From a virus: a DNA stretch of 51,672 nt. Of the stretch, positions 2,998 through 51,672 are shown one piece after another (within the stretch, counting starts at the first letter, position 1; the number at the start of each line of letters is the position of its first letter). The DNA is taken from positions 1-51,672 of the IMG/VR virus record IMGVR_UViG_3300034177_000075. One strand, written 5' to 3'. The position numbers and the translations under genes were made by a program. Below the pieces are notes generated by a model, which was given only the letters and a program-made list of their open reading frames with translations, had not been told where the DNA came from and searched no databases.

Positions 2998-3969
2998 ATG
3001 AAAAAACTGCTGGCCATGTTCCTGTCCCTGGTGTTCCTGTCCGGCTGCGCGTGGCTGCTAGACCAGATACCGCAGCCGCCCGTACCCAGTCCGACCCCGA
3101 GCCCCGTACCCAGTCCGACCCCGAGCCCCGGGCCGACGCCGGAGCCGAGTCCCAGCCCGACGCCGTGCGCGCCCCCGGACCTCGAGACCAACACCTGCCT
3201 CGCCCCCGGCGCCTCGGGGGCGCCACGCGACGGCCGGCGCGTCGCCGAGGTCGACGCCGCGCAACGCGCGGTGCAAACGCGTTACCCCGGGCGCTTCGGC
3301 CCCAGCCCGCGCGGCGACGCGAGCTTCAGAATCAACGACCCGCTGACGGGCCTGCCGCTGCCACAAGACGATCCGGCGCTCTGGTATCTGGATGCCGTGA
3401 TCGCCGAGCTACAAGCCGGCGGCCTGTGCGCCAGGCGCGAGGGCGAGGAGATCGCGGTTGCCGATCCCGAGTCCGGGGCCTACGAGAATTACGCGGCCGT
3501 CATTCAGAACCTGGGACCGCGCACCAGCTACGGCGCCGGCATGTACCGCGCGTGGTGTCGCGTCGTCGCGCCGTCGCCGCCTCCCGTAGCATCCTGCCCC
3601 CTCGAGGCCCCGGCGGTCGCCAAGTTCCGGCTCCACGTCTCGTCGGCGTCAACATTCCCCCGGGGTCGCCGCGTCGACGCCACGCCGGTGGCCGCCGGCG
3701 AGGCGTGGTGCGCCAGCCAGGGATTCCTGGACCCCGACGGCAGCGGCCAGGGATGGTGCCCGTACGGCGCCGAGGGCGGGGCCCAGGAACTGGCGTGCCA
3801 GGCTCGAGAGGGCCCCTACCGCTGGTCGCAGCGCGAAACTACGGTATGGCTTGACTTGCCTGCCGACGATGACAACGTGCTTCAGGCGTGGATCGCAGCC
3901 AACTACTCGGGCACCGTACGCGTTTGCGCCGCGACCGGCGCATGCTCCGAGGTCGATGTCCGGCCATGA
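2998..3969 (+). CDS. Phage lipoprotein with Pro/Ser/Thr linker (lipoprotein 1)
   Basis: 323 residues. Signal peptide MKKLLAMFLSLVFLSGC with lipobox LSGC, so lipid-anchored at Cys17. Residues ~25-58 are a Pro/Ser/Thr/Glu linker encoded partly by a 24-bp tandem repeat (3082-3129). A central domain (YLDAVIAELQAGGLCARREG, then EEIAVADPES and a CRV end) matches lipoprotein 2 at 15622. The C-terminal part has paired cysteines (EAWCASQG, GWCPYG, ELACQ, VCAATGACSEV), suggesting disulfides outside the cytoplasm. A role at the infected-cell surface, such as blocking superinfection, is inference. Confidence 0.8.
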   Translation: MKKLLAMFLSLVFLSGCAWLLDQIPQPPVPSPTPSPVPSPTPSPGPTPEPSPSPTPCAPPDLETNTCLAPGASGAPRDGRRVAEVDAAQRAVQTRYPGRFGPSPRGDASFRINDPLTGLPLPQDDPALWYLDAVIAELQAGGLCARREGEEIAVADPESGAYENYAAVIQNLGPRTSYGAGMYRAWCRVVAPSPPPVASCPLEAPAVAKFRLHVSSASTFPRGRRVDATPVAAGEAWCASQGFLDPDGSGQGWCPYGAEGGAQELACQAREGPYRWSQRETTVWLDLPADDDNVLQAWIAANYSGTVRVCAATGACSEVDVRP

Positions 3970-4172
3970 CCAACGGCAAGGGGCTCTTCGACGATCGCGT
4001 CCGTGCGATTATCCGCTCCGAGTGCTCGCGCATCGACCTCGCACTGAGGATCGTCAAGGCCGAAGACGAGATCAATAAGATTCGCGCTGACGAGCCGGAG
4101 CCGAGGGCATGCAACGGTTCCGACGCAGACCTCGGGTGTGAATGCGGCGGGACGCATGGGACGGGGCGATGA
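3966..4172 (+). CDS. 68-aa hypothetical protein
   Basis: ATG 3966 overlaps the lipoprotein stop. Helical, charged N-terminal two thirds (FDDRVRAIIRSECSRIDLAL) and a small Cys/His tail (CNGSDADLGCECGGTH) that may bind metal. It ends overlapping the first copy of the duplicated start segment at 4163. Confidence 0.6.
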   Translation: MTNGKGLFDDRVRAIIRSECSRIDLALRIVKAEDEINKIRADEPEPRACNGSDADLGCECGGTHGTGR

Positions 4173-4248
4173 AGCTAGAGGAGATCAGGGCCGAGGCGGA
4201 AGCGCTGCTCGTGGGATCAGAAGCCCACGAGCCTCTAAAGGCCATGAC
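4163..4248 (+). repeat. 86-bp direct repeat, copy 1
   Basis: Copy 1 of a segment repeated at 4754-4839 with 83 of 86 positions identical. Each copy contains a ribosome-proximal GGGGCG, an ATG and the first ~27 codons of a MKLEEIRA protein. The copies flank the hexapeptide-repeat gene. Confidence 0.9.
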
Positions 4249-4285: not shown

Positions 4286-4763
4286 CCAGACGTTCGATTT
4301 CGGTACGGGGCTGGTCCCAGCATCTCGCCACCACAACGGCGGCGGGTGGGTGGCCGATTCCGCGCAGGTGGCGGCCACTGCCTACGTTGGGCCGGAGGCG
4401 CAGGTCTTTGGCGAGGCGCGGGTCTCCGGTGAGGCGCGGGTCTTCGGCAAGGCGTGGGTCTCCGGCGAGGCGTTGGTCTCCGGTGAGGCGTGGGTCTTCG
4501 GCGAGGCGTGGGTCTTCGGCGAGGCGTTGGTCTCCGGCGAGGCGCGGGTCTTCGGCGAGGCGTGGGTCTACGGCAAGGCGCGGGTCTCCGGCAAGGCGCG
4601 GGTCTTCGGCGAGGCGTGGGTCTCCGGCAAGGCGCGGGTCTCCGGCAAGGCGCGGATCTTCGGCCGGGCGCAGGTCTTCGGCGAGGCGCGGGTCGGCGGC
4701 GAGGCGCAGGTCTTCGGCAAGGCGTGGGTCTCCGGCGAGGCGCGCTACGAGGAGGGGCGATGA
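4272..4763 (+). CDS. Hexapeptide-repeat (left-handed beta-helix) protein
   Basis: 163 residues. After a ~45-residue lead the protein is more than 18 consecutive six-residue turns of the type VFGEAR, VSGEAR, VSGKAR, encoded by an 18-bp DNA period. This is the left-handed parallel beta-helix pattern seen in YdcK-like and acyltransferase-like proteins, usually polymerising or trimeric; no catalytic addition is visible. ATG 4272 has GGAGGAGGC upstream. Stop overlaps the next ATG. The near-perfect DNA repeat suggests expansion and contraction by slippage. Confidence 0.8.
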   Translation: MSANNQTFDFGTGLVPASRHHNGGGWVADSAQVAATAYVGPEAQVFGEARVSGEARVFGKAWVSGEALVSGEAWVFGEAWVFGEALVSGEARVFGEAWVYGKARVSGKARVFGEAWVSGKARVSGKARIFGRAQVFGEARVGGEAQVFGKAWVSGEARYEEGR

Positions 4764-4839: not shown

Positions 4840-5236
4840 AAGACAGGTCTGTATGTTATGCCGGGCGACGTGGCCATGTAGTGCTATTAGTCAGGCACGC
4901 CGGGTCCTCGCCCTCGTAGCGGTCGCGGAGGCAGCACAGGCTCATAGTGCAACCATGAGCGATCCGCAAGCGCGCCTAGCCGGGGCGAGGGAGATGCGTG
5001 AGAGAGTGGCATTGGCGGTACAGAACGGTGCGGGAGAGGCTTTCGGTATCTCACGACCATTCTGGAACCGGAGAGAATGTGTCCGTGATATCCGCGCGAT
5101 GCCCGACGCACCGGAGACGAAGGAGGGGCATGCGATGGCACCGACGCCGGGCTCGGCGGCGGAAGCGGAAGCGGAAGCGGAGGCAGAGGGCGACGATGAT
5201 GGCGGCGGAGGCTCTATGCCGGTGAAGCGTGGCTAA
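4760..5236 (+). CDS. 158-aa MKLEEIRA protein (long paralogue)
   Basis: Begins with the same ~27 residues as the 38-aa gene at 4169, then diverges: a CMLCRATWPC cysteine cluster, a helical middle containing AREMRERVALAVQNGAGEAF, and a low-complexity AEAEAEAEAEG tail encoded by GGAAGC-type triplets. ATG 4760 overlaps the previous stop. Function not recognised. Confidence 0.65.
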   Translation: MKLEEIRAAAEALLVGSEAHEPLEAMTRQVCMLCRATWPCSAISQARRVLALVAVAEAAQAHSATMSDPQARLAGAREMRERVALAVQNGAGEAFGISRPFWNRRECVRDIRAMPDAPETKEGHAMAPTPGSAAEAEAEAEAEGDDDGGGGSMPVKRG

Positions 5237-5591
5237 CGGTCCAATCGAGGCGTCGTGCCGAGCCTGGCTGAGGGAGAACATGCCCCTGGAACTGCGCGAC
5301 GACGGAGAGCCGCACTTCTCACACGTCTTACTCCTTACCGCCTTCGTCCTCAAACACTGCCGTGAGGGTAAGAGGGATATGCGGGAGCGGGCGGCCGAGT
5401 ATGTGGCTACTCACTATCCTGTCTATCACACCGGGAGAAGTTCGTTCGGGTGGATTATGGAGAAGAGCGGCCAGCCGCAAGATGGCGGAAAGGTCCAAGA
5501 GACCTATGCCAAGGCGATTCGCGCTCTGCCCGACGAGCCGGAGGAGAAACTAAAGGTATCTGCCGCGGTGATCGCGCGGATGGCCGAATGA
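5229..5591 (+). CDS. 120-aa hypothetical protein upstream of the polymerase
   Basis: GTG 5229 overlaps the previous gene by 8 nt. Helical protein with a HFSHVLLLTAFVLKHC segment and a conserved-looking YHTGRSSFGWIMEKSG stretch. The stop overlaps the ATG of the fused polymerase gene, so the two are probably translated in step. No family recognised. Confidence 0.65.
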   Translation: MANGPIEASCRAWLRENMPLELRDDGEPHFSHVLLLTAFVLKHCREGKRDMRERAAEYVATHYPVYHTGRSSFGWIMEKSGQPQDGGKVQETYAKAIRALPDEPEEKLKVSAAVIARMAE

Positions 5592-8500
5592 GTCGAGGCC
5601 CTCAACAGGCGGGCCTCTTCGGCGACGCCGAGGAGTGGGAAGACGACTGGCGAGGGATGCCGGAGTTCATCCAGGAAGACCTCGCGCCCGCGACATCGAT
5701 CACCGTCGAGTTCGACGACGGCCCGCTTTACGTCCACTTCGAGGACCGTGCGGTCAAACTCGGGTTCGAGCGCAAGCTCTCAGCCGCGCTCGCGGCGCGC
5801 CGTCTAGAGTTCGCCGACGGCGCGGCGACGCCCGCGCGTCTCGGCCGCGAGTGGTTCTCGACGATCGCCGGCCAAGACATACCGGAGGGCAATCCCGATC
5901 GACGCCGGACGCAGTCGATCTGGTACCCGGAAGCCGAGATCGGGCACTACGCGAATAAGCTCTATGTAACCGACGCCCCGGTAAATCCTCGTTATCCCGT
6001 CTACATCATCTCGAAGGGCCGATGGGAGTCTCGCCTAACGTCGAAGGCTCTGGAGGAGCTACAAGTCCCGTATAGAATCGTAGTAGAGCCCCAGGAGCGG
6101 GACGCCTACGCGGCAGTCATTGATCCCGAGAAGATTCTAGTGCTTCCGTTCTCGAATCTCGGACAGGGATCAATCCCCGCGCGGAACTGGGTTTGGGAGC
6201 ATTCTATCTCCACGGGAGCGCAGCGGCATTGGATTCTTGACGACAATATCGGGGGATTCTACCGGCTAAACCGCAATCTAAAGACCCCGGTTGGCTCAGG
6301 TGCGATTTTCCGCGCGTCGGAAGATATGGTAGACCGCTACGAAAATGTCGCCATCTCCGGGTTCCACTACTTCATGTTCGCGTTCCACTACTTCATGTTC
6401 GCGTCACGCAAGACTAAGCTCCCCCCCTTTACGCTAAACTCTCGGATCTACTCGTGCATCCTAATCCGAAACGACATCCCGCATAGGTGGCGGGGCCGGT
6501 ACAACGAGGATACGGACCTCTCGATACGCGCGTTGAAGGACGGGTGGTGTACTATCCTCTTCTCTGCATTCTTGGCCGGAAAAAAGCAGACCATGACGAT
6601 GCGTGGCGGCAATACGGACGAGCTTTATGCAGGAACTGAGCAGGGGCCCACGGAGGAAGACGGCCGATGGAAAATGGCCGAGTCCTTGCGGCTCCAGCAC
6701 CCCGATATCGTTGCGGTCGCGCGGAAGTGGGGGCGGTGGCAACACCAGGTCGACTACTCGGGATTCAGGCGAAACCGTCTGCGGCTTCGCCCCGGCGTCA
6801 CAATCCTCGAGGGGGTCGATAACTTCGGGATGAGGCTCGTTATCCGTGAGGCTCCGACCCCCCCTACTCCTGCTCCGGCTCCGCATATCGAGGTCTTTCA
6901 TACGCCTGTTGGCGCGATCCCGACGATTCAGGCCGGGATGTTCGCCGCGCCGTCAACGGCGTGGCGGGCGCCCGAGCCTCCGGACCTCCGAGATTGCCGG
7001 GAGCTGGCGTTCGACCTCGAGACCACGGGACTAGACTGGCGGGGCGTCGATCGCCCGTGCGGCGTCGCCATCTACCCCCGCGGCGGCGTCCCGATCTACC
7101 TCCCCTTCGGCCACCGTGGCGGCGACAACCTGGACGAGCGGCGGGTCAAGGACTGGTGCCTGACGCAGCTCCGCGGCCGTCGCCTCTGGGGCGCGAACAT
7201 CAAGTTCGACGCCCACATGTTCCGCGAGTGGACGGGCGTCGACCTCGAGGATCTCGGCTGCCGGCTCTCCGACGTCCAGCACCGCGCGGCGCTACTCGAC
7301 GACCACCGACAGCACTTCGGCCTCGATGTCCTGGGCCGCGATATCCTGGGCGTCGGCAAGCTCCAGGGAGTTGATCTCTCCCGCGGCGCCGCCGTCCACC
7401 CGTCATCCGCCGTCGGCCCGTACGCGGAGCGCGACGTCGAACTGACCCTGCGGCTCGCCGACGTCTTCGAGCCGCAGATCGCAGCCCAGGGCCTCGGCGC
7501 CGTGGCGGACCTCGAGGACGACATCATCTTCCCCGTCCTGGAGATGGAACGCAACGGCGCGCCCCTCGACGTCGAGAAGCTCGAGCGGTGGCTCCGCGAG
7601 GCCGAGGCCGAGCGCCAGGCGACGCTCTGGGATGTCTACCGCGAGACCGGGATGCGCGTCGACCCCGACCGGCCGGATGAACTCGCGGCACTGTGGCGTA
7701 AGCTCGGGCTCCCGGAGCCGCCGACGACGGCGACGGGACGCCCGAGCTTCACAGGCGCCGTACTCAAAGCCGCCAGCCACCCGATCGTCGACAAGCTACT
7801 CCACGCCGCGCACCTCGCGGACCTCGCGATCAAGTTCCTGATCCCGTACTCCAAGCGCCGCGTCGGCGACCTCCTGACGTTCCAGCTCGAGCAGCTCCGG
7901 GGCGAGAAGGGGGGAACGGTGAGCGGCCGGTTCTCGGCCCACAGCGAGAACATCCAGCAGGTCCTCAGCGCCGAGAAACAGCGTGCCGAGTACGGCGACC
8001 GCTACCTGGTGCGCGAGCTGTTCGTCCCGCGATCCGGCGTCCTCGTCGCCGCGGACGCGCGGCAGATCCAGTTGCGGATCCTCGCCCACTACGCGGAGAG
8101 CCCGCGGCTACTCGCCGCCTACGCCGCGGACCCGCTGACGGACTTTCACGCCGAGGTCGGGAAGATGCTAGAGCCGTTCGTCCCAGGATTCCCGCGGAAG
8201 CGCCTCAAGATCACGAACTTCACCCGGATCTTCGGCGGCGGCCGCGGCAAGATCGCGTCGCAGACGGGGATGTCCGTCGAGGAAACGGAGACGTTCCTCG
8301 TCGCCTACGATCGCGCGTTCCCCGAGGGCCGGGCGTTCCTCGAGCGCGCGTCGCGCGCGGCAAAAACCCGGGGCTATGTCCGGACATTCCTTGGCCGCCG
8401 CCAGCGGTACCCCGATTGTCCGAAGCACGGAAAGGGGCAGCGCGGTCCGTGCCCGACGTGCCCGCGCCTCCACAAGGCGGCCAATGACGTGATTCAGGGC

Positions 8501-8725
8501 ACGGAGGCCGACGTCGTGAAACGCAAGCTCGTGGAGCTTCACCGCCAGCGCCACGAGCTGGGGCTGACTCTCCGTATGGTCGTACACGACGAGGTCGTCG
8601 GCGATGTCGCGGACGCCGAGGCCGCGGCGCGCGTCGCCGACGTCCTCGACGAACAGACGACGACGCTACGGGTACCGATCCTGTGGTCGGCCAAGACGGG
8701 CGCCAATTGGGCGGTTTGCGCTTGA
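5588..8725 (+). CDS. TAGT-family glycosyltransferase fused to family A DNA polymerase
   Basis: 1045 residues in one open frame; ATG 5588 overlaps the previous stop. Residues 1-130: the domain that usually precedes TAGT proteins (GMPEFIQEDL, SIWYPEAEIGHYA). About 136-418: TET-associated glycosyltransferase (YPVYIISKGRWESRL, GQGSIPARNW, DDN near 217, YNEDTD near 305), a family predicted to put sugar on oxidised pyrimidines in DNA. About 421-435: Pro-rich linker. About 474-615: 3'-5' exonuclease with all motifs (DLETTG, NIKFD, YAERD). About 640-1045: polymerase with motif A DARQIQLR, motif B KITNFTRIFG and motif C VHDEV. Motif A carries Gln where Pol I has Glu710, and motif B Phe where Pol I has Tyr766. 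A Cys-rich insert (CPKHGKGQRGPCPTC) lies between B and C. A 7-residue tandem duplication sits in the TAGT part. Confidence 0.9.
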   Translation: MSRGPQQAGLFGDAEEWEDDWRGMPEFIQEDLAPATSITVEFDDGPLYVHFEDRAVKLGFERKLSAALAARRLEFADGAATPARLGREWFSTIAGQDIPEGNPDRRRTQSIWYPEAEIGHYANKLYVTDAPVNPRYPVYIISKGRWESRLTSKALEELQVPYRIVVEPQERDAYAAVIDPEKILVLPFSNLGQGSIPARNWVWEHSISTGAQRHWILDDNIGGFYRLNRNLKTPVGSGAIFRASEDMVDRYENVAISGFHYFMFAFHYFMFASRKTKLPPFTLNSRIYSCILIRNDIPHRWRGRYNEDTDLSIRALKDGWCTILFSAFLAGKKQTMTMRGGNTDELYAGTEQGPTEEDGRWKMAESLRLQHPDIVAVARKWGRWQHQVDYSGFRRNRLRLRPGVTILEGVDNFGMRLVIREAPTPPTPAPAPHIEVFHTPVGAIPTIQAGMFAAPSTAWRAPEPPDLRDCRELAFDLETTGLDWRGVDRPCGVAIYPRGGVPIYLPFGHRGGDNLDERRVKDWCLTQLRGRRLWGANIKFDAHMFREWTGVDLEDLGCRLSDVQHRAALLDDHRQHFGLDVLGRDILGVGKLQGVDLSRGAAVHPSSAVGPYAERDVELTLRLADVFEPQIAAQGLGAVADLEDDIIFPVLEMERNGAPLDVEKLERWLREAEAERQATLWDVYRETGMRVDPDRPDELAALWRKLGLPEPPTTATGRPSFTGAVLKAASHPIVDKLLHAAHLADLAIKFLIPYSKRRVGDLLTFQLEQLRGEKGGTVSGRFSAHSENIQQVLSAEKQRAEYGDRYLVRELFVPRSGVLVAADARQIQLRILAHYAESPRLLAAYAADPLTDFHAEVGKMLEPFVPGFPRKRLKITNFTRIFGGGRGKIASQTGMSVEETETFLVAYDRAFPEGRAFLERASRAAKTRGYVRTFLGRRQRYPDCPKHGKGQRGPCPTCPRLHKAANDVIQGTEADVVKRKLVELHRQRHELGLTLRMVVHDEVVGDVADAEAAARVADVLDEQTTTLRVPILWSAKTGANWAVCA
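6361..6402 (+). repeat. Perfect 21-bp tandem duplication inside the TAGT domain
   Basis: Two identical 21-bp units (6361-6381, 6382-6402) give FHYFMFA twice. Family members, as I recall them, have one such segment, so this is a recent in-frame insertion. Confidence 0.9.
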
Positions 8726-8750
8726 CACGTATTTAAAAAGGAGTTACAAT
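8722..8750 (+). promoter_or_regulatory. Promoter after the polymerase gene
   Basis: -35 TTGACA (8722-8727), 17-nt A-rich spacer, -10 TACAAT (8745-8750). The -10 overlaps the ATG at 8749; a second in-frame ATG at 8758 lies exactly 7 nt after it. The same bases also form a normal ribosome site (AAGGAG, 5 nt before ATG 8749), so promoter and translation signals coincide. Confidence 0.6.
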
Positions 8751-8964
8751 GCTCCCAATGTTGATCCTGATCGGGCCGCAACCGGACCTCCCCCCTGGCC
8801 GCGTCTGGCGCTGCGCCGTCTGCCGGACGCGCGTCAAGGAGGGGACGATCCACACCTCGGATGTCCCAACACCGCATCAGGCGATCGACGCCCTCCTGTC
8901 GCCGATCGTCCTCGATCCGGCCACCGACCCCTGGCGCGGCCGCCCGCTATGGGCGCGCGCGTGA
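8749..8964 (+). CDS. 71-aa small CxxC protein
   Basis: Reads with WRCAVCRTRVKEGTIHTSD, a possible zinc knuckle, in an otherwise Pro-rich small protein. ATG 8749 has AAGGAG 5 nt upstream; if the overlapping promoter is used, translation would have to start at ATG 8758. Overlaps the next gene as GTGA. Function unknown. Confidence 0.6.
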   Translation: MLPMLILIGPQPDLPPGRVWRCAVCRTRVKEGTIHTSDVPTPHQAIDALLSPIVLDPATDPWRGRPLWARA

Positions 8965-9338
8965 CCGAGGCGAAGCTCAAGCGCGCGTTCGTCACTCAGG
9001 CGCGCCGGCGATTCCCCGCCGCGGTCATCTTTCGCCACGAGGACATCCGGACTTCGGGCATCCCCGACCTGTCGTTTACGTGGCGCGGGCTCACGACGTG
9101 GATTGAGTTCAAGGCCGGCCCCCGGCCGAAGTTCGCCGGCGTCCAGGCCTACACCTGCGCTAGACTCGCTCGGGAGGGCCGTTGCTGGGTCGTCGTCTGG
9201 GACGATGGTGGAACCTACGTGTACCGGCCGCGGATCCTCAACTGCGATATCGTCATCGACCCTATGGCGGGCACCGACAAACCCCACGCACATGACCTCG
9301 TGCTCGACCTGCTCGAGGCCGAAAGGAAAAAGCCGTGA
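8961..9338 (+). CDS. VRR-NUC family nuclease
   Basis: 125 residues, the usual size of stand-alone phage VRR-NUC proteins. The PD-(D/E)XK core is visible: RHEDIRTSGIPDLSF supplies the Asp and WIEFKAG the Glu-x-Lys pair. GTG 8961 overlaps the previous stop and matches where relatives begin (TEAKLKRAF); an ATG at 8949 is possible. In phages such enzymes process branched DNA during replication or recombination. It sits between the polymerase and a second PD-(D/E)XK nuclease. Confidence 0.85.
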   Translation: MTEAKLKRAFVTQARRRFPAAVIFRHEDIRTSGIPDLSFTWRGLTTWIEFKAGPRPKFAGVQAYTCARLAREGRCWVVVWDDGGTYVYRPRILNCDIVIDPMAGTDKPHAHDLVLDLLEAERKKP

Positions 9339-11769: not shown

Positions 11770-13482
11770 ATGGCTCTTCCGGGGCCCCCTGCCACGCCGA
11801 CCACCGCACCTTCCCCGCTCGGCGGGGGACGGCCTCCTCTCTACCGCCATCAACAGGAGGACGCGGCGCGCATGGCCGTCGCCACGGAGGCCGGGTGCGG
11901 CCGCCTACTCCCGCGGTGCTTCGCCAACTGGAGCGAGACCCGCACGGGCAAGACGCGGACCGCAATCGAGGCGGCGCAGCTGCTCTTCGAGCGCGGGGAA
12001 ATCGACCGCGTGATCGTCGTCGCGCCGGCGAGCGTCCGCGACGGCGTGTGGTTCGACCCCGATCCGGACGTCGGGCAGCTCGCGCGCTACCTGCGGGTCC
12101 CCGCCCTAGTGACGCGCTTCCACGCGCGCAAGGCGACTTGGGGCCGCGGCAGCGTCTCGCGCGCCCTTCGCTGGTTCATTACAAATTACGAATTCGCGCG
12201 CGTCCCCGCGCGGCTCGCCGTACTACTCCAGATCGCGGACGAGCGCACGATTCTGGTCCTCGACGAGGCGCACGCCGTGAAGAACCACCGCGCCGCGCAA
12301 ACCAAAGCCGTAGCCAAGCTCCGCGCCAGATGCGGCTGGATCTGGGAGCTAACGGCGACGCCGACGACCGACGACGGCATCGGCGACCTCTACTCTCAAG
12401 CCGCGATCCTCGACCGCCGCATCATCGGCGCCAAGAACTGGTGGGAGTATCGCGCCCGCTACGCGCTTCTCGGCGGCTTCAAGGGCAAAGAGATCGTCGG
12501 CTGGCGCCACGCGCTCAAGCCCGGCTGCTGCGACCGCCCGGCCACCAGTGCCGTTCACGGCCCGGGCGCGCAGGCCGATGAAGTCCGCATCGCGCTCGCG
12601 CCCTATGTCGTGCGGCGGCTCAAGGCCGGGTGCTTGGACCTGCCGCCCAAGCTGGACCCCGTGACGCTCACCGTAGCACTCGGCAAGGACTCGTGGGCGC
12701 TCTACCGGCAGATGCGCGACGACGCCGTCGCCTGGCTCGACGCCAACGCCAGTGCCTCGGCGGCCGTCGCCGGGGCCCGCGTCATGCGCCTGGGCCAGAT
12801 TACGAGCGGCCACGTCGGCGGCGTCAAGGCGTTGCTCCCCTGCGACTGCGGCGAGTTCGGGGGCGACTGCCCGCGCTGTGGCGGCACCGGGGGCATCGAG
12901 GAACACGCGGCGCCCCGTGATGTCGGGCGCGAGAAAATCGACTTCCTGCTCGAGTGGCTCGCCACGACGTGGCGCGAGGAGCCGGACGCCAAGATCATCA
13001 TCTGGAGCCGCTGGCGCCGCGAGGTCGAACGCGCGTATGACGAATTGCGGCTCCAGACGGGAACTCGGGGCCTTGAGGTGCGACGAGATCGCATAGGCCG
13101 CCTATGGGGCGGCCAGCCGGCGGACGAGCGCACCGCGGCGCTGCGCCTGCTCCACCCGCAGACGGCGCCCCCCGGGCCCGCGGTCGTCATCGGCCATCCG
13201 CGCGTCGGCGGCGCCGGTCTCGACTTCGCCGCCGCGTCCTGGGTGCTCCGGCTGTCGAGTGACCACAACCTCGCGGACCGCATCCAAAGCGACGACCGCC
13301 CTCACGGCCCGGGGCAACAGCGCTCGATCTGGTACGGCGACGTCATCGCCACGGGACCCAACGGCGAATACACGGTAGACCGTACAATCCTGTTGTCGCT
13401 TCGCCGCAATCTGCGCGGCGCCACGTGGACGGCCGCGGCGTGGTCACATGCACTGAAGGAGGAAAGAGATGGCGAAGGGTAA
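11770..13482 (+). CDS. SNF2/SF2-type helicase
   Basis: 570 residues. Q-region YRHQQEDAARMA, Walker A in WSETRTGKTRTAIE, DEAH box in LVLDEAHAVKNH, motif III LTATPTTDD, and in the second half motif V/VI (GGAGLDFAAASWVLRL, then RIQSDDRPHGPGQ). A zinc cluster, CDCGEFGGDCPRCGGTGG, is inserted before the second RecA domain at about residue 358. Such helicases in phage replication modules remodel forks or strip proteins from DNA. Start ATG follows the promoter directly. Its last 14 nt overlap the next gene. Confidence 0.85.
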   Translation: MALPGPPATPTTAPSPLGGGRPPLYRHQQEDAARMAVATEAGCGRLLPRCFANWSETRTGKTRTAIEAAQLLFERGEIDRVIVVAPASVRDGVWFDPDPDVGQLARYLRVPALVTRFHARKATWGRGSVSRALRWFITNYEFARVPARLAVLLQIADERTILVLDEAHAVKNHRAAQTKAVAKLRARCGWIWELTATPTTDDGIGDLYSQAAILDRRIIGAKNWWEYRARYALLGGFKGKEIVGWRHALKPGCCDRPATSAVHGPGAQADEVRIALAPYVVRRLKAGCLDLPPKLDPVTLTVALGKDSWALYRQMRDDAVAWLDANASASAAVAGARVMRLGQITSGHVGGVKALLPCDCGEFGGDCPRCGGTGGIEEHAAPRDVGREKIDFLLEWLATTWREEPDAKIIIWSRWRREVERAYDELRLQTGTRGLEVRRDRIGRLWGGQPADERTAALRLLHPQTAPPGPAVVIGHPRVGGAGLDFAAASWVLRLSSDHNLADRIQSDDRPHGPGQQRSIWYGDVIATGPNGEYTVDRTILLSLRRNLRGATWTAAAWSHALKEERDGEG

Positions 13483-16681: not shown

Positions 16682-17670
16682 ATCTCAAGAAGCTGGCCCT
16701 GGGGCTGACGCTCGCCCTGGGGATCGTGTCGTGTAGCAAGGACGAGACGCCCACGGTGAGCGGGTCGACGCCCGCGGAGCCGGCGGTTTCGGCAACGCCG
16801 AAGCCCGAGCCGGTGACGAACCCAACCCCGACCCCCGGCGGGCCGAACGGCGGGATCCAGGCGGTCGTCACGCTCACCGGCGCGACGGCGCGGATCGACT
16901 TCACGGGGAACGGGACAACTCTCGTCGGCCTCGCGTGCTACACGCCGCCCGGGAATGGCCTGGGGCGGCTGCTGGCCTCGACGACGGGGCTGGAGTCCCC
17001 GCTGATTATCAAAGACATCCTCGCCAACGAGCGTTGCGGCCAGACCTTCGTAGTGCAGTGCGACGCGTGGGCCGGAAGGCCGACGGCGCCCGCCAACGGC
17101 GACTTTCATGGAGACGAGTTCCTGGGCGCCAACGGTCCGCCCTGGCCGAGTGTCAGCACCGCGCCTTGCGCGGAGCCGTCGCCGGAGCCGTCGCCCTCTC
17201 CGAGTCCCAGCCCCTCGCCCTCTCCGAGTCCCAGCCCCTCGCCCTCTCCGAGTCCCAGTCCCTCGCCCTCTCCGAGTCCCAGCCCCTCGCCCTCTCCGAG
17301 TCCCAGCCCCAGCCCGACGCCACCTCCTCCGAGCTGTGAGTCTCTGACCCTCGAACACCTGATTGGCCCGGGTCCTCAGTGCGTGGTCCTCAGCGGCGGC
17401 CAGGACAGCGAGTGCGGGCAGGTGGCTCAGGCGTTTGACTCACCCGCCGGATCACTGGCGAACCAGGCCTACGACGGCCAGGAGGACCAGCTCACGCACG
17501 ACTTCGAGTGGACCCAGAGCGCGCTCTTCGCCTTCGTGGTGGATGCGAACGAATGCCAGGGCCAGCCCAAGGCGGTGCGCGTCGCCAAGAACGTGGTCGC
17601 CGGCCAGCCGGTGCCCTTCGCCGCGGACGACGTCGACGGGCTGTCCGTGTCCTACTGCGTCTGCCGATGA
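16678..17670 (+). CDS. Phage lipoprotein 3 with long Ser-Pro linker
   Basis: 330 residues. Signal peptide VNLKKLALGLTLALGIVSC with lipobox IVSC (Cys19). An N-terminal domain (~60-155) holds CYTPPG, ERCGQTFVVQCDAW and a GDEFLGANG stretch. Residues ~165-220 are nearly pure Ser-Pro repeats coded by a 24-bp tandem array. The C-terminal domain (~225-330) has paired cysteines (QCVVLSGGQDSECGQ, YCVCR). GTG overlaps the prior stop. The layout, lipid anchor plus rigid spacer plus globular head, suggests display away from the membrane. Confidence 0.8.
   Translation: MNLKKLALGLTLALGIVSCSKDETPTVSGSTPAEPAVSATPKPEPVTNPTPTPGGPNGGIQAVVTLTGATARIDFTGNGTTLVGLACYTPPGNGLGRLLASTTGLESPLIIKDILANERCGQTFVVQCDAWAGRPTAPANGDFHGDEFLGANGPPWPSVSTAPCAEPSPEPSPSPSPSPSPSPSPSPSPSPSPSPSPSPSPSPSPSPSPSPSPTPPPPSCESLTLEHLIGPGPQCVVLSGGQDSECGQVAQAFDSPAGSLANQAYDGQEDQLTHDFEWTQSALFAFVVDANECQGQPKAVRVAKNVVAGQPVPFAADDVDGLSVSYCVCR
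17191..17310 (+). repeat. 24-bp tandem repeat, five units
   Basis: Five consecutive 24-bp units encode Ser-Pro octads of lipoprotein 3; unit 3 differs by one base. A two-unit 24-bp array encoding a similar linker is in lipoprotein 1 (3082-3129). Confidence 0.9.
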
Positions 17671-17793: not shown

Positions 17794-18090
17794 ATGAAGA
17801 TAGCCTTGTCCGCCGCGGAACTCGCGGGCCACACGCGGCCTCGCGGCTACGCCGGCGGCCTCTTGGTAAAGGTGTACGAACCAAGCCCCCCGCACGGCGT
17901 CGCGCTCGTAGCGCGGCCCAGCAGCGGCCGCTTCGTCGAGATCCCGCTGCGGCGGCCGCGCCTGCTGTTCTCGGGGTTCGTCAAGCGATCGACGCCGCTC
18001 CGCGAGTACCTGTGGCTGCCCAAGGTGGGGACGCGGCGAATCCTCGCCGTCGGCTGCGAGGGCCGCGCGCTCGCCGTGCACGTTGCGTGA
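17794..18090 (+). CDS. 98-aa hypothetical protein
   Basis: GGAGGTGACGTC precedes ATG 17794, a strong start. Mixed beta protein (ALVARPSSGRFVEIPL, then RRILAVGCEGRALAV). No family recognised. Its end overlaps the start of the decayed methyltransferase. Confidence 0.65.
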   Translation: MKIALSAAELAGHTRPRGYAGGLLVKVYEPSPPHGVALVARPSSGRFVEIPLRRPRLLFSGFVKRSTPLREYLWLPKVGTRRILAVGCEGRALAVHVA

Positions 18091-18370
18091 GCTTCGAGCT
18101 CCGGCAGGGCAACGTCCTCGACGTGTTGCCGACGCTCGAGCCCGGGAGCGTCTAGACGTGCGTCACGAGCCCGCCAGACTGGGGCCTCCGCGCTACGGCT
18201 CCGAGGGACAGATCGGGCTCAAGCGCACGCCCGAGGAATACGTCTCCAGGCCGGTCGAGGTCTTCCGCGAGGTGCGGCGCGTGCTGCGAGACGACGGTAC
18301 CGTTTTTCTTAATCTTGGAGATTCCATCGCCGGCCCGCTGTTCGCCACGGAAAAGACTAAAAATGCCTGA
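18087..18370 (+). pseudogene. Decayed DNA methyltransferase (DpnIIB/CcrM-like) remnant
   Basis: GTG 18087 opens MSFELRQGNVLDVLPTLEPG, the start of phage N4/N6 methyltransferases of the type ending motif IV in SPPYW. Codon 23 is TAG (18153-18155) where Gln is expected, motif IV reads SPPDW, and a 1-nt deletion just after shifts the frame, which then continues GQIGLKRTPEEYV, FREVRRVLRDDGTVFLNL and GDSIAG. The gene stops at 18370, so the rest of the enzyme is lost. It cannot be active. Confidence 0.8.
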
Positions 18371-18542: not shown

Positions 18543-19144
18543 CCGCCGCGAAGATCCTGAAGCTGCTGCGCCAGCGGCACGCCGGAGAATACTTCATCGG
18601 CGAGGCGAAGACCGGGAGCAGCTGGGGTCGATCTCGCGGCCGCGGCGAGCGCCTGGACGGCTGGGCGCTACGCAACACGTGGTCGCCACTGACGACCTGC
18701 GGCTACGAGATCAAGATCAGTCGCTCGGACTTCCGCGGCGACCACAAGTGGCGTGATTACCTGCCCTATTGCCACCAGTTCTACTTCGTGGCCCCCGCGC
18801 GGCTCCTCGACAAGCGGGAGATCCCGACAGAAGCCGGCTTGCTGTGGGCGCATCCCAATAGGTTGACGGCCGTCAAAGCGGCGCCACGGCGCGAACCCGC
18901 GGCCGCAGACCTGGTGTCGATCATGAGCTACGCGCTGATGAGCCGCAGCCGCGCGGTGCGCAACATGCACGAGGCCAACGCCGAGGCGCATGACGCCTGG
19001 CGCGCGTGGCTGGTCGGCGAGATCCGGGACGGCCATATCGGGCACCTCGTGAGCGCCAAGCTGCGCGAGCGCCTTGATCGCCTATACGTCTTGGAGCACC
19101 GTGAGGTGTGGCGAGACGCTGATCGTCAGGGGGGTACTGATTGA
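18539..19144 (+). CDS. MmcB-like PD-(D/E)XK DNA repair protein
   Basis: 201 residues. TTG 18539 overlaps the previous stop and has GAGGTGA 8 nt upstream. Core motif GYEIKISRSDFRGDHKW, then YCHQFYFVAPARLLDKREIP and TEAGLLWAHP, is typical of the MmcB family, a restriction-endonuclease fold linked to DNA repair. An N-terminal helical region and C-terminal helices (VRNMHEANAEAHDAW) flank it. Exact substrate unknown. Confidence 0.75.
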   Translation: MTAAKILKLLRQRHAGEYFIGEAKTGSSWGRSRGRGERLDGWALRNTWSPLTTCGYEIKISRSDFRGDHKWRDYLPYCHQFYFVAPARLLDKREIPTEAGLLWAHPNRLTAVKAAPRREPAAADLVSIMSYALMSRSRAVRNMHEANAEAHDAWRAWLVGEIRDGHIGHLVSAKLRERLDRLYVLEHREVWRDADRQGGTD

Positions 19145-21267
19145 AGATCAACCTCGAGCGGCGGTGGCACGCCTGGCGCGTCGTCGACGGCAAGAAGCCG
19201 CCGGTGGGCGACGACGGGCGACCCCTGGCGGCGTGGAACGACGAACAACAGCAGCTTACTAGGGCCGACGCCGAGGCCAGGGCCCGCGGCTTCGCCGCCG
19301 CGACCTGGAAATACGGCGTCGACTTCGGCATCGGCGTCGTCGCCGGGCGCGGCCGCTCGTTCGTCGACCTCGACCACTGCCGGGACCCGCAGACGGGCGC
19401 CCTCGACCCCCGGGCCGCCGCCGTCGTCGCGAGCTTCACCGGCGCCCGAGTCGAGGTCTCGCCCTCGGGCGCCGGCCTACATATCTTCTTCGCCGCCGAC
19501 GAGCCGCCGCTCGAGCTGAACTTCGCGGCCTCGGCGACGCTCCAGCGGCAGAAGCTCGCGGGCTTCTGCACGATCACAGACCGCGAGGCCTCTGGCGACT
19601 CGGACGCCGACGGCGCGTCGGCGCTGCTGTTCTGGGCCGGCGACGACCAGGCGCGCGGGAACGGCAAGGCCGCGCCCCTCGCCGAGATCATCCGCGAGGG
19701 CGGGCGCAACCGCTCGCTCTTCCAGGAGGCCGCGGCGCTCCGCGGCCGCAACTACGATGAGCCCCAGATCCTCGCCGCGCTCGAGGCCCTGAACTCCCGC
19801 TGCGACCCGCCGTTGCCGCCCGATGAGGTGCGCCAGATCGCGAGGTCGGCCTCGCGCTACGACGCCGCGGAGCAGACGTTCGCGCCCGACCAGCTCCGCG
19901 CCGCCATCCACTTCGCGGAGACGCGGGGGGACCGCTGGCGATACGACCACCGGCAGGGCCGATGGCTCCTCTGGGACGGCGTCCGCTGGGCGCCGGACCG
20001 CAGCGAACGGATCGTCCGCGACGTCGCGGACATGGTGCTCGAACGCATCGCCGCCGCCGTCGCCGTCGGCCAGAAGGCCGGCAAGATCGCGTCGCTCACC
20101 GGGCGCTCGGCGCTCCTCGGCGTCCGCGACATCGCGCGGACGCGCGAACCCGTCGCCGATGCCGGCGACGGCTGGGACGCCGATCCCTGGCTCCTCGGCG
20201 TCCCGAACGGCGTCGTCGACCTCCGCACCGGCGAACTGCGCGCCGGCCGCGCGGAAGACCGGATCACGATGCAGACGCGCTACGCCTACGACCCGGCGGC
20301 CACGGCACCCCTATGGGAGGCGACGCTCGCAAGCACGTTCGTGACCGACCCCGAGATCGTACCCTACATCCAACGTGCCCTCGGCTACTCGCTGACCGGC
20401 GACTGCCGACATGAGGTATTCTTCCTCGCGACGTCGCCGCTCGACGCCGCGGAGCCGGGCCGCGAGGGCAAGGGCACGATCATCAACACCGTGGCCAAGG
20501 TGCTCGCCGACTACGCTGATGATCTGGGATTCCACTCCCTGGAGGCCAAGAAGCACGGCGAAAGCGAGACGAGCCCCGACCTCGCGAAACTCGTGCGCAA
20601 GCGCTTCGTCACCGCGAGCGAGACCGCGGGCGGGCGCTTCAACGAGGCGCGCATCAAGCGCATGACCGGCCGCGACCCGATCACGGCGCGATTCCTCTAC
20701 CAAAACGAGTTCGCCTTCATCCCGGAGTTCAAGCTCTGGCTGTCCGTCAACCGGCCGCCGAGAGTCACCGATGACGGCTTCTGGTCCAGGCCCCACCGCA
20801 TCCCGTTCCGCACGAGCTTCCGCGGCCGCGAGGACACGACGCTCAAGGACCGCCTGCTCGACGAAGGCCCCGGAATCCTGGCCTGGCTCGTCCGCGGCGC
20901 CCTCGCCTGGCGAGACGCGGGATTCCGCCTCGAGCCCCCGCCTTCGGTGGTCGCCGCGGTCCTAGAGTATCGCTTGAGCCAAGCGCCGCTAAGTGAATTT
21001 TACGCGGCGCGATGCGTCATCCCGGACGCAAATTCTGCGGGGGTGTGGACCCCCACCGCGGACCTCCGCGAAGCCTATATCAAGTGGTGCGAGGCCGAGC
21101 GCATCCGCTTCCCGCTCGGGACCAAGCAATTCGCCTTGGAACTCGCCAAACGGTTCCCCCAGCATCAGGAGGCCGTGGGGTCCCGACGTAGGGGCTTCAG
21201 AGATATAGGATTAGCTACCCTCAATGGGGTACGTGAACCGGGGGAAGACGATGCTTTGCCGTTCTGA
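19141..21267 (+). CDS. Prim-pol primase fused to D5-type replicative helicase
   Basis: 708 residues; TTG 19141 overlaps the prior stop with AGGGGGG upstream. Residues 1-190: bifunctional primase-polymerase domain (SFVDLDHC, VEVSPSGAGLHIFF). About 180-240: PriCT-type helical linker (GGRNRSLFQEAAALRG). About 265 onward: phage/plasmid primase P4-type D5 helicase with DPWLLGVPNGVVDLRTG; the nucleotide-binding loop is GREGKGTIINTV, lacking the usual GNGKS wording, with FVTASETAGG downstream. A C-terminal winged-helix region (TADLREAYIKWCEAERI) ends it. Makes primers and unwinds DNA at the fork. Confidence 0.85.
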   Translation: MKINLERRWHAWRVVDGKKPPVGDDGRPLAAWNDEQQQLTRADAEARARGFAAATWKYGVDFGIGVVAGRGRSFVDLDHCRDPQTGALDPRAAAVVASFTGARVEVSPSGAGLHIFFAADEPPLELNFAASATLQRQKLAGFCTITDREASGDSDADGASALLFWAGDDQARGNGKAAPLAEIIREGGRNRSLFQEAAALRGRNYDEPQILAALEALNSRCDPPLPPDEVRQIARSASRYDAAEQTFAPDQLRAAIHFAETRGDRWRYDHRQGRWLLWDGVRWAPDRSERIVRDVADMVLERIAAAVAVGQKAGKIASLTGRSALLGVRDIARTREPVADAGDGWDADPWLLGVPNGVVDLRTGELRAGRAEDRITMQTRYAYDPAATAPLWEATLASTFVTDPEIVPYIQRALGYSLTGDCRHEVFFLATSPLDAAEPGREGKGTIINTVAKVLADYADDLGFHSLEAKKHGESETSPDLAKLVRKRFVTASETAGGRFNEARIKRMTGRDPITARFLYQNEFAFIPEFKLWLSVNRPPRVTDDGFWSRPHRIPFRTSFRGREDTTLKDRLLDEGPGILAWLVRGALAWRDAGFRLEPPPSVVAAVLEYRLSQAPLSEFYAARCVIPDANSAGVWTPTADLREAYIKWCEAERIRFPLGTKQFALELAKRFPQHQEAVGSRRRGFRDIGLATLNGVREPGEDDALPF

Positions 21268-23988: not shown

Positions 23989-24669
23989 GTGAAACATTGG
24001 CTCAGCGCCAGGGAACATTGGCTCAGCGCCAGGGAACATTGGCTCAGCGCCAGGGAATCTGTGCACTGCCCCGTCCTCCTCCCCGCGGACGTGATCCTCA
24101 CGCGAAGTGACACGTTCCTCGGCAAGGCGATCCGCCTCGCGACGCGCCGGCTCGGCGACGCCGTGGTCTACAACCACTCGGGGATTGTGACGCAGTCGGG
24201 GCTCGTCCCCGGGCCCTACGCGGACGCCGTTGACAGTGGCGCGTGCATGACCGAGGCGCTGTGGCGCGTCCGCTACGGCGCGGTCTGGCGGTTCTACGGT
24301 CCGCCCGCGGGGCCCAAGCGGCCCGAGGTCGCGATCTGGAGGCCGTTCTCCCTGGACTCGCCGACGCGGAGCCGCATCGCGGCGCACGCCGAGGCGCGCG
24401 TCGGCCAGCGGTACGCGTGGTGGCGCCTAAGCGCGCACCTCGCGGACAGCGCTCTCTCATGGCTCGCGTTTGGCCACGACGTTAGGCTGTTCCGCCGCGT
24501 CAACGTCACGGACCGCCCCATCTGCTCGTGGCTCGTCGCCGAAGCATTCTCGGCCGAGGGCCTCGACTTTGGCGTTCCCGCGGCGTCGGCTGACCCCGAT
24601 GACATCGCGGACTACGTGGAGACTCACCCGCTAAAGTACGCGTTGGTCTTCGAGGGGCGGATCGCGTGA
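23989..24669 (+). CDS. Permuted papain-like amidase (YiiX/C92 type), candidate lysis enzyme
   Basis: 226 residues. GTG 23989 has GAGG 5 nt upstream. Residues 3-23 are three HWLSARE repeats. The domain then starts ADVILTRSDTFLGKAIRLAT, with catalytic His in NHSGIVTQSG and catalytic Cys in RPICSWLVAEAF, the order of permuted NlpC/P60 enzymes. These cleave amide bonds in peptidoglycan or lipids. Closest candidate for an endolysin in this window, beside holin-like genes. A GTG at 24058 could start the domain without the repeats. Confidence 0.7.
   Translation: MKHWLSAREHWLSAREHWLSARESVHCPVLLPADVILTRSDTFLGKAIRLATRRLGDAVVYNHSGIVTQSGLVPGPYADAVDSGACMTEALWRVRYGAVWRFYGPPAGPKRPEVAIWRPFSLDSPTRSRIAAHAEARVGQRYAWWRLSAHLADSALSWLAFGHDVRLFRRVNVTDRPICSWLVAEAFSAEGLDFGVPAASADPDDIADYVETHPLKYALVFEGRIA
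23993..24055 (+). repeat. 21-bp tandem repeat, three perfect units
   Basis: Three identical 21-bp units in frame at the very start of the amidase gene, each coding HWLSARE. Each unit also contains CCAGGGAA. Confidence 0.9.
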
Positions 24670-51458: not shown

Positions 51459-51672
51459 TGGATGAACGCGGCGTCGACCATCCCCGCGAATTTCGCGCGC
51501 TGAGCGGCTTTGGCAGCGGACCGGGCGGCGGCCCGGGCGGCCTCGGCGGCGTCCCGGGCGGCGGTCCAGGCGGCCTCGGCGGCGGCGTCCCGGGCGGCCT
51601 CGGCGGCGGACCAGGCGGCGTCCCAGGTGGTGACCCGCGCGGCGGCCCGGGCGGCCTCGGTGGCGGTCCAGG
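51455..51672 (-). CDS. Ala-rich DUF7666-like protein, 3' part (cut by the window edge)
   Basis: The C-terminal ~72 codons of the gene begun at 470. Same Ala/Arg tract (EAARDAAAEAAWTAARDAAE) and a distinct end AAQRAKFAGMVDAAFIQ, the position where relatives have a conserved terminus. Coding phase shows the window ends do not abut: direct joining leaves the halves out of frame. Confidence 0.8.
   Translation of the reverse strand, partial: WTATEAARAAARVTTWDAAWSAAEAARDAAAEAAWTAARDAAEAARAAARSAAKAAQRAKFAGMVDAAFIQ

Follow-up and report, generated by a model that had tools for sequence, protein, structure and literature searches.

Why a virus would build a glycosyltransferase and a DNA polymerase as one polypeptide is the question raised by a gene of the IMG/VR virus record IMGVR_UViG_3300034177_000075, whose whole length of 51,672 bases was analyzed here (hereafter the window). 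A preliminary description, made from the sequence alone, had read this gene as a TET-associated glycosyltransferase (TAGT) fused to a family A DNA polymerase (Pol). The best-known TAGT, the beta-glucosyl-hydroxymethylcytosine (HMC)-alpha-glucosyltransferase of phage T6, sugars phage DNA (PMC13216743; PMC13390438), where it adds glucose to alpha-glucosyl-5-hydroxymethylcytosine (PMC13216743). From domain architecture, conserved motifs and comparison with related viruses, we infer that the 1045-amino acid (aa) product of the window gene is the phage's replicative DNA polymerase, to which a DNA glycosyltransferase is covalently joined, and we consider it rather probable that the tethered glycosyltransferase sugar-modifies nascent phage DNA during its synthesis.

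A single open frame carries both enzymes with intact motifs

The frame of the fused gene is open throughout from ATG to stop (1045 codons, 5588-8725), and the codon-position bias continues in this single frame across the junction between the TAGT and Pol parts. The same domain order occurs in five other contigs, and the single uninterrupted frame described earlier is thereby borne out. The parts of the gene are the following.

5588..8725, +, fused coding sequence, 1045 aa: N-terminal domain, TAGT, linker, 3'-5' exonuclease and family A Pol
5606..5620, +, N-terminal QAGLF (residues 7-11), putative beta-clamp-binding motif
5648..5929, +, 'WRGMPEF ... TQSIWYP' N-terminal domain (residues 21-114), from alignment
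5993..6610, +, TAGT domain (residues 136-341), predicted GT-A-like fold, Pfam PF20691, E 3.7e-42
6239..6247, +, DDN (residues 218-220), by analogy with DxD the nucleotide-sugar/metal site
6361..6404, +, perfect tandem duplication of 21 bp inside the TAGT domain, adding the seven residues FHYFMFA
6506..6517, +, EDTD (residues 307-310), region where the catalytic acid/base is presumed to lie
6611..6841, +, conserved C-terminal stretch of the TAGT-type protein (HPD ... RWQHQVDY; residues 342-418), from alignments
6842..6952, +, Pro-rich linker (residues about 419-455)
6929..6943, +, QAGMF (residues 448-452), putative beta-clamp-binding motif immediately ahead of Pol
6986..7480, +, 3'-5' exonuclease (residues 467-631), Pfam PF01612, E 2.3e-7
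7577..8713, +, family A DNA polymerase (residues 664-1042), Pfam PF00476, E 6.3e-50

Both Pfam and PHROG confirmed the assignment of the two halves. The PF20691 match scores 145 bits against a cut-off of 27.5 and covers profile positions 1-205 of 205, the PF00476 match scores 170.6 bits against a cut-off of 34.3, and PHROG places beta-glucosyl-HMC-alpha-glucosyltransferase at residues 134-347 and DNA polymerase at residues 457-1044. For the TAGT, residues 136-418 had been proposed, of which Pfam supports 136-341 and not 342-418, though the latter part is conserved in other TAGT proteins. The Pro-rich linker is present between the halves as described, and the motifs reported as intact in the TAGT (DDN, EDTD), the exonuclease (D476/E478, D541 and Y612/D616, all catalytic residues being kept) and the polymerase (motifs A, B and C, with D823, K874, F878 and H1000-D1001-E1002) were verified residue by residue.

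DDN, E307, D308 and D310 are invariant in an alignment of 24 TAGT sequences, fused ones included. A GT-A-like fold is predicted for the TAGT half: the core of its AlphaFold2 model has predicted local distance difference test (pLDDT) values mostly above 90, and Foldseek matched the model to GT-A enzymes (E 1e-5, with low TM-scores) and to viral TAGTs (E 1e-21 and better). Among its fold neighbours in PDB is GT25/ColGalT1, an enzyme that glycosylates hydroxylysine in protein; direct sequence relatives of the TAGT half were not found in PDB. Over 213 residues, this half is 52% identical to a protein of Aeromonas phage Ah1. The first 120 residues of the fused protein also belong to a TAGT-type protein, the 'W..MPEF ... 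T.SIWYP' domain preceding TAGT in standalone proteins as well and sometimes forming a separate open reading frame (ORF) upstream of shorter TAGT genes. At L192, L198, L199, L203 and similar loci, the domain lies in ORFs of roughly 215-230 aa directly upstream of a standalone TAGT, and the part of these ORFs before the domain appears ParB-like by eye; the ORF is possibly a functional partner of TAGT.

PDB relatives of the Pol half are Taq, Bst and Klenow. Motif A of the window (residues 820-830, 8045-8077) reads ADARQIQLR, with Gln for Glu, while most relatives have QIE(Y/F)R; the motif-A Glu (QIELR) of most family A polymerases is the ribonucleotide steric gate.

The fusion recurs and appears to have arisen at least twice

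Among the best 80 loci kept from a TAGT-profile search, one further fusion was found, L037 (1210 aa), which is 47.5% identical to the window protein in TAGT and 35.6% in Pol and has junction motifs in common with it (QAGMF/QAPMF and W..PEPPDL). Searches with the Pol half, and afterwards with the fused clade, retrieved Pfam-confirmed TAGT-Pol proteins in L098, L101, L260 and L262. The search for other proteins with both domains, which the preliminary description had proposed, thus yielded five more contigs, and six distinct contigs in total with the window. At 80% coverage, the fused protein matched none of 50,697 phage records; the architecture was not met in cultured phages, and no polymerase joined to either a glycosyltransferase or a DNA methyltransferase was found in the literature searched, which had most subscription papers outside its reach. 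An 890-aa viral protein in BFVD (A0A6G6XN95) has a TAGT part 48% identical to that of the window, and its remaining half may make another fusion. In L037, L098 and L101, exonuclease motif I reads NFA and not DxE, and therefore these TAGT-Pol proteins have probably lost proofreading.

In the tree of Pol halves, the window grouped with the unfused L091 (95/95), and L037, L098 and L101 formed a separate clade. An approximately unbiased (AU) test, made after a first tree on a group set by architecture, rejected a single clade of the Pol halves of the window, L037, L098 and L101 (p 4.6e-73), and in a wider, quick Pol tree the window stood apart from all five other fusions. For the TAGT halves, a single clade of the fused TAGTs was not rejected (p 0.51). 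One origin of TAGT-Pol is therefore rejected on the Pol halves for the four sequences tested, and these phylogenies indicate that polymerases of this kind were joined to a TAGT at least twice, either to independent TAGTs or, as the result for the TAGT halves allows, to one module moving between polymerases. The G+C fraction at third codon positions (GC3) is 0.75 in the TAGT half and 0.89 in the Pol half (Fisher p 4.5e-9), against 0.82-0.94 in 13 other genes, as expected if the TAGT half was acquired later or recently. A simple fusion of a neighbouring TAGT and a free polA was also considered and rejected: among the TAGT-search loci, the polymerase of this lineage was present only in fused ones. 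Near the fused gene of L037, FkbM-like and MT-A70-like methyltransferase genes were noticed by eye (3558-4187 and 8638-9240).

Related polymerases carry methyltransferase-like domains in place of TAGT

Within the other fused clade, L097, L099 and L108 have a domain in place of TAGT, here called MT1, with the motifs DPCAGWGG and SPPYYDTE. Its matches to N6_N4_Mtase and to PHROG DNA methyltransferases are weak (E 0.013 to 1e-4), and Foldseek matched its model to class I methyltransferases; the model itself is poor (pLDDT 42) and was therefore used as weak support. In L265 and L288, a second domain (MT2) carries SCPPYGDLE, and its N6_N4_Mtase match in L288 (E 7.6e-6) falls just under the curated cut-off; MT2 shares 64% identity with a Microcystis phage Mae-JY30 gene that is annotated as ParB/sulfiredoxin and 56% with the 'DNA modification methylase' of Erythrobacter phage R6L. 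In L284, the same N-terminal position is taken by a ParB-like domain (E 0.023). L288, with MT2, is the sister of L262, with TAGT (99 SH-aLRT), so modules were swapped on nearly the same polymerase.

By their predicted families, the identified N-terminal domains have action on DNA in common. The main reason for thinking that the fused TAGT modifies DNA is that the domains swapped in at its position are of kinds that act on DNA.

The truncated L252, of the same polymerase lineage, is listed with the relatives bearing methyltransferase-like or ParB-like domains. A linker stretch of ~50 aa, 'L..KGHRLLTRDGKLFVSNASTLTDDERALIK.HK..LL', lies between effector and polymerase in L037, L099, L108, L260, L262, L266 and L302 and is absent from the window; it resembles a docking domain of the TubC type, to which L101 has a weak Pfam match.

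Putative clamp-binding peptides flank the glycosyltransferase

Qxx[LM]F is a known form of the beta-clamp-binding peptide and was recently noted in bacterial PolA2 (PMC12926913). The window protein has two such peptides. QAGLF, at the N-terminus, has counterparts in the fused proteins L037 (QDNLF), L098 (QPALF) and L101 (QPNLY), and at that position the standalone TAGTs L010, L012/L013, L014 and L029 carry QQLLF, QVALF, QPALF and QNSLF. QAGMF, the counterpart of QAPMF in L037, lies at the position where unfused polymerases have their N-terminus; among the latter, 5 of 22 N-termini have the strict motif against 0.25 expected (about 20-fold), and 13 of 22 have the relaxed motif against 2.1 expected. 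A phage-encoded beta clamp was found in 14/14 viruses with an effector or linker extension on Pol and in 0/30 compact relatives; L098 and L101 are among those that encode a DnaN. The viruses are related to one another, so these counts do not stand for independent events, and fragments are among the records. From these patterns we infer that the fused polymerase is tethered to a clamp. As no sliding-clamp gene was found in the window, its phage would need the clamp of the host.

The source of the acceptor hydroxyl

The preliminary description found no thymidylate-synthase homologue in the window, and no PF00303 match (thymidylate-synthase-type hydroxymethylase) was obtained there, while controls matched. 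The homologue is present in the unfused neighbours L090 and L091 and in three cultured TAGT phages. A TET/JBP oxygenase partner gave the TAGT family its name. Tet_JBP (PF12851) had no match in the window or in the other TAGT viruses, a result that says little, because the control was silent in every genome. As such a partner is also unseen in other TAGT viruses, it appears not to be a strict requirement for TAGT membership. The hydroxyl could be supplied by an unrecognized enzyme, such as an oxygenase, by a modified deoxynucleoside triphosphate or by a host factor, or an unmodified group could serve as acceptor.

A proposed mechanism and its alternatives

In the mechanism we propose, the polymerase would make DNA while the Qxx[LM]F peptides on either side of the glycosyltransferase hold it on the sliding clamp. 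The tethered GT-A domain would take a sugar from a nucleotide-sugar donor and place it on a base of the nascent duplex that bears a hydroxyl, and the new phage DNA would be shielded from host restriction or CRISPR nucleases before they could cut it. Modification at the fork, suggested in the preliminary description and still a proposal, has gained strong comparative support from the repeated union, the methyltransferase-like swaps and the flanking clamp-like motifs. A broader reading, to which we give an even chance, is that the polymerase lineage is a modular, clamp-held replicase with an exchangeable DNA-modification slot, of which the glycosyltransferase version would mark a base without a known hydroxymethylase. 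The slot would then hold a glycosyltransferase, either of two methyltransferases or a ParB-like domain, and modification would be built into synthesis and not added later.

Several observations weigh against modification of nascent DNA by the fused protein. No acceptor base is in sight, because neither a thymidylate-synthase-type hydroxymethylase nor a Tet_JBP match was found; a thymidylate-synthase homologue is likewise missing from the tested relatives, fused or extended, and from all 19 metagenomic viruses with a standalone TAGT (0/19). The 21-bp duplication is without counterpart in relatives. The clamp-binding peptides are short and putative by sequence, and the window lacks a clamp gene of its own. 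The methyltransferase assignments score below Pfam cut-offs, and the AU test had a first tree before it. T4 offers a precedent for clamp contact, its alpha-glucosyltransferase (alpha-GT) binding gp45 in vitro, but that contact does not account for the glucosylation pattern seen in vivo and is not its main cause (PMC13216743).

Some of these points would also be explained if the TAGT module no longer transferred sugar and were retained as a piece of Pol that contacts DNA or the clamp, such as a domain for processivity or recruitment. The exact duplication within the TAGT domain and the lack of a recognized source of hydroxylated base fit such a role, in which the clamp-binding-like peptide and the N-terminal domain of the module could serve without catalysis. 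The duplicated residues, however, map to a low-confidence loop of the AlphaFold2 model (263-275) outside the core, which is still modelled with high confidence, and the catalytic motifs are invariant across the 24 TAGTs, those in fusions among them. Catalysis is moreover indicated as the selected property by the domains that relatives swap in, which are methyltransferase-like and have SPPYY or SCPPY motifs, and we regard a non-catalytic TAGT as unlikely. It is also improbable, in our estimate, that the glycosyltransferase acts off polymerized DNA, either on free modified nucleotides, which would become available to Pol, or on a protein such as the polymerase itself or a host factor. The fold neighbour GT25/ColGalT1, with its protein substrate, would favour this, as would the fact that a base hydroxylase is unseen in the window and in most viruses with this type of TAGT. 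Yet the characterized T6 TAGT works on glucosylated DNA, and a DNA substrate fits best with a fusion to Pol that was made at least twice and with the exchange for DNA-methyltransferase-like domains.

A joined frame without meaning, whether from an assembly or sequencing error or because the chain is split by proteolysis or internal initiation (e.g. at Met451 in QAGMF), is in our judgement very unlikely. The window is a single metagenomic contig with further perfect tandem repeats, and GC3 in its TAGT part is lower than in the rest of the phage. Against this stand the unbroken codon bias and the junction motifs kept in L037, and low GC3 fits a recent acquisition; a frame or assembly artefact was rejected because the identical architecture recurs in five other contigs. 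Sugar transfer to nascent DNA by the polymerase-borne TAGT is in our view the more probable reading.

The phage genome around the fused gene

The gene products of the window include terminase, portal, major head, tail and tape-measure proteins, and PD-(D/E)XK and RNase H-like nucleases are also encoded. By these annotations, the source is a tailed phage with replication genes of its own. Other genes located in the window are the following.

5229..5591, +, ORF of 120 aa upstream of the fused gene, without family match
11770-13482, SNF2-type helicase
19141-21267, D5-like primase-helicase

The TGA of the upstream ORF overlaps the ATG of the fused gene at 5588 (ATGA), which suggests that the two are coupled in translation. 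The structural genes have ~33-35% identity to those of proteobacterial siphophages. No fused relative was found in scans of genome contigs, and the same scans yielded one unfused polymerase relative, in a Sulfuricaulis metagenome-assembled genome.

The first 30 bases of the window are found again at 51576, inside a G+C-rich repeat near the far end, and the window may therefore be close to a complete genome. G+C-rich repeats of the GGCGGCGGCCCG type lie at both ends (1-121 and 51504-51672) and are likely a repeat region where assembly broke. Near-perfect tandem arrays with units of in-frame length (18, 21 and 24 bp) occur at 4395-4744, 3079-3130, 17191-17310 and 23993-24057, and the genome seems prone to such duplications. 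A remnant of a DNA methylase (18086-18367, +; N6_N4_Mtase E 7.4e-6) is split, with an SPPxWGLR region behind a stop in one frame and the continuation RTPEEYV..EVFREVRRVLRDDGTVFLNLGDS in another; this phage may have lost the methylase. ARAGORN called a tRNA-Arg within the polymerase gene (8234-8314, -), which is probably false.

Relation to known systems and significance

The TAGTs of T6 and of the Aeromonas Ah1/Aeh1 relatives resemble that of the window in the whole profile, in DDN and EDTD and in having a MPEF-SIWYP-like N-terminal region. Known members met in this analysis stand alone, as proteins of about 280-520 aa, whereas that of the window is fused to Pol; and the TAGT phages of Straboviridae, Ackermannviridae and Tenacibaculum tested have a thymidylate-synthase homologue, which the window does not. 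TAGT occurs without alpha- or beta-glucosyltransferase in 288 of 753 phage genomes (PMC13216743). In its logic, the mechanism proposed here resembles T4 alpha-GT with gp45, where a DNA glycosyltransferase is brought to the replisome via the clamp (PMC13216743). Unlike the window TAGT, which is GT-A-like and lies within the Pol chain, T4 alpha-GT has a GT-B fold, makes a non-covalent contact and receives its hydroxymethylcytosine from a dedicated pathway.

On the polymerase side, phage family A polymerases (PHROG 17; Vibrio phage VpKK5, Salmonella phage SE4) have the same exonuclease and polymerase domains, with about 30% identity over residues 444-1042. PolA2/APEX of Actinobacteria is also a family A Pol with a QxxLF beta-clamp motif (PMC12926913), but it is cellular, its exonuclease is inactivated with the motif lying within the vestigial domain, and it carries no modification domain. 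GP55 of lactococcal phage 1706, a four-in-one replicase, is likewise a multi-enzyme single chain; it is a helicase-primase-PolB, for which the abstract names no DNA-modifying domain (PMC12205980).

Even for T4, the question arises whether phage DNA is modified during or after replication. A covalent union of modifier and replicase, met on more than one polymerase branch and with exchangeable modifiers, allows a direct test of this with a single purified protein; it argues that many solitary TAGTs act on DNA, and it offers a possible route to writing modified DNA during synthesis. Since a TAGT is fused to Pol here, and related viruses fuse the same kind of Pol to methyltransferase-like enzymes instead, these architectures suggest that some viruses chemically mark their DNA while copying it.

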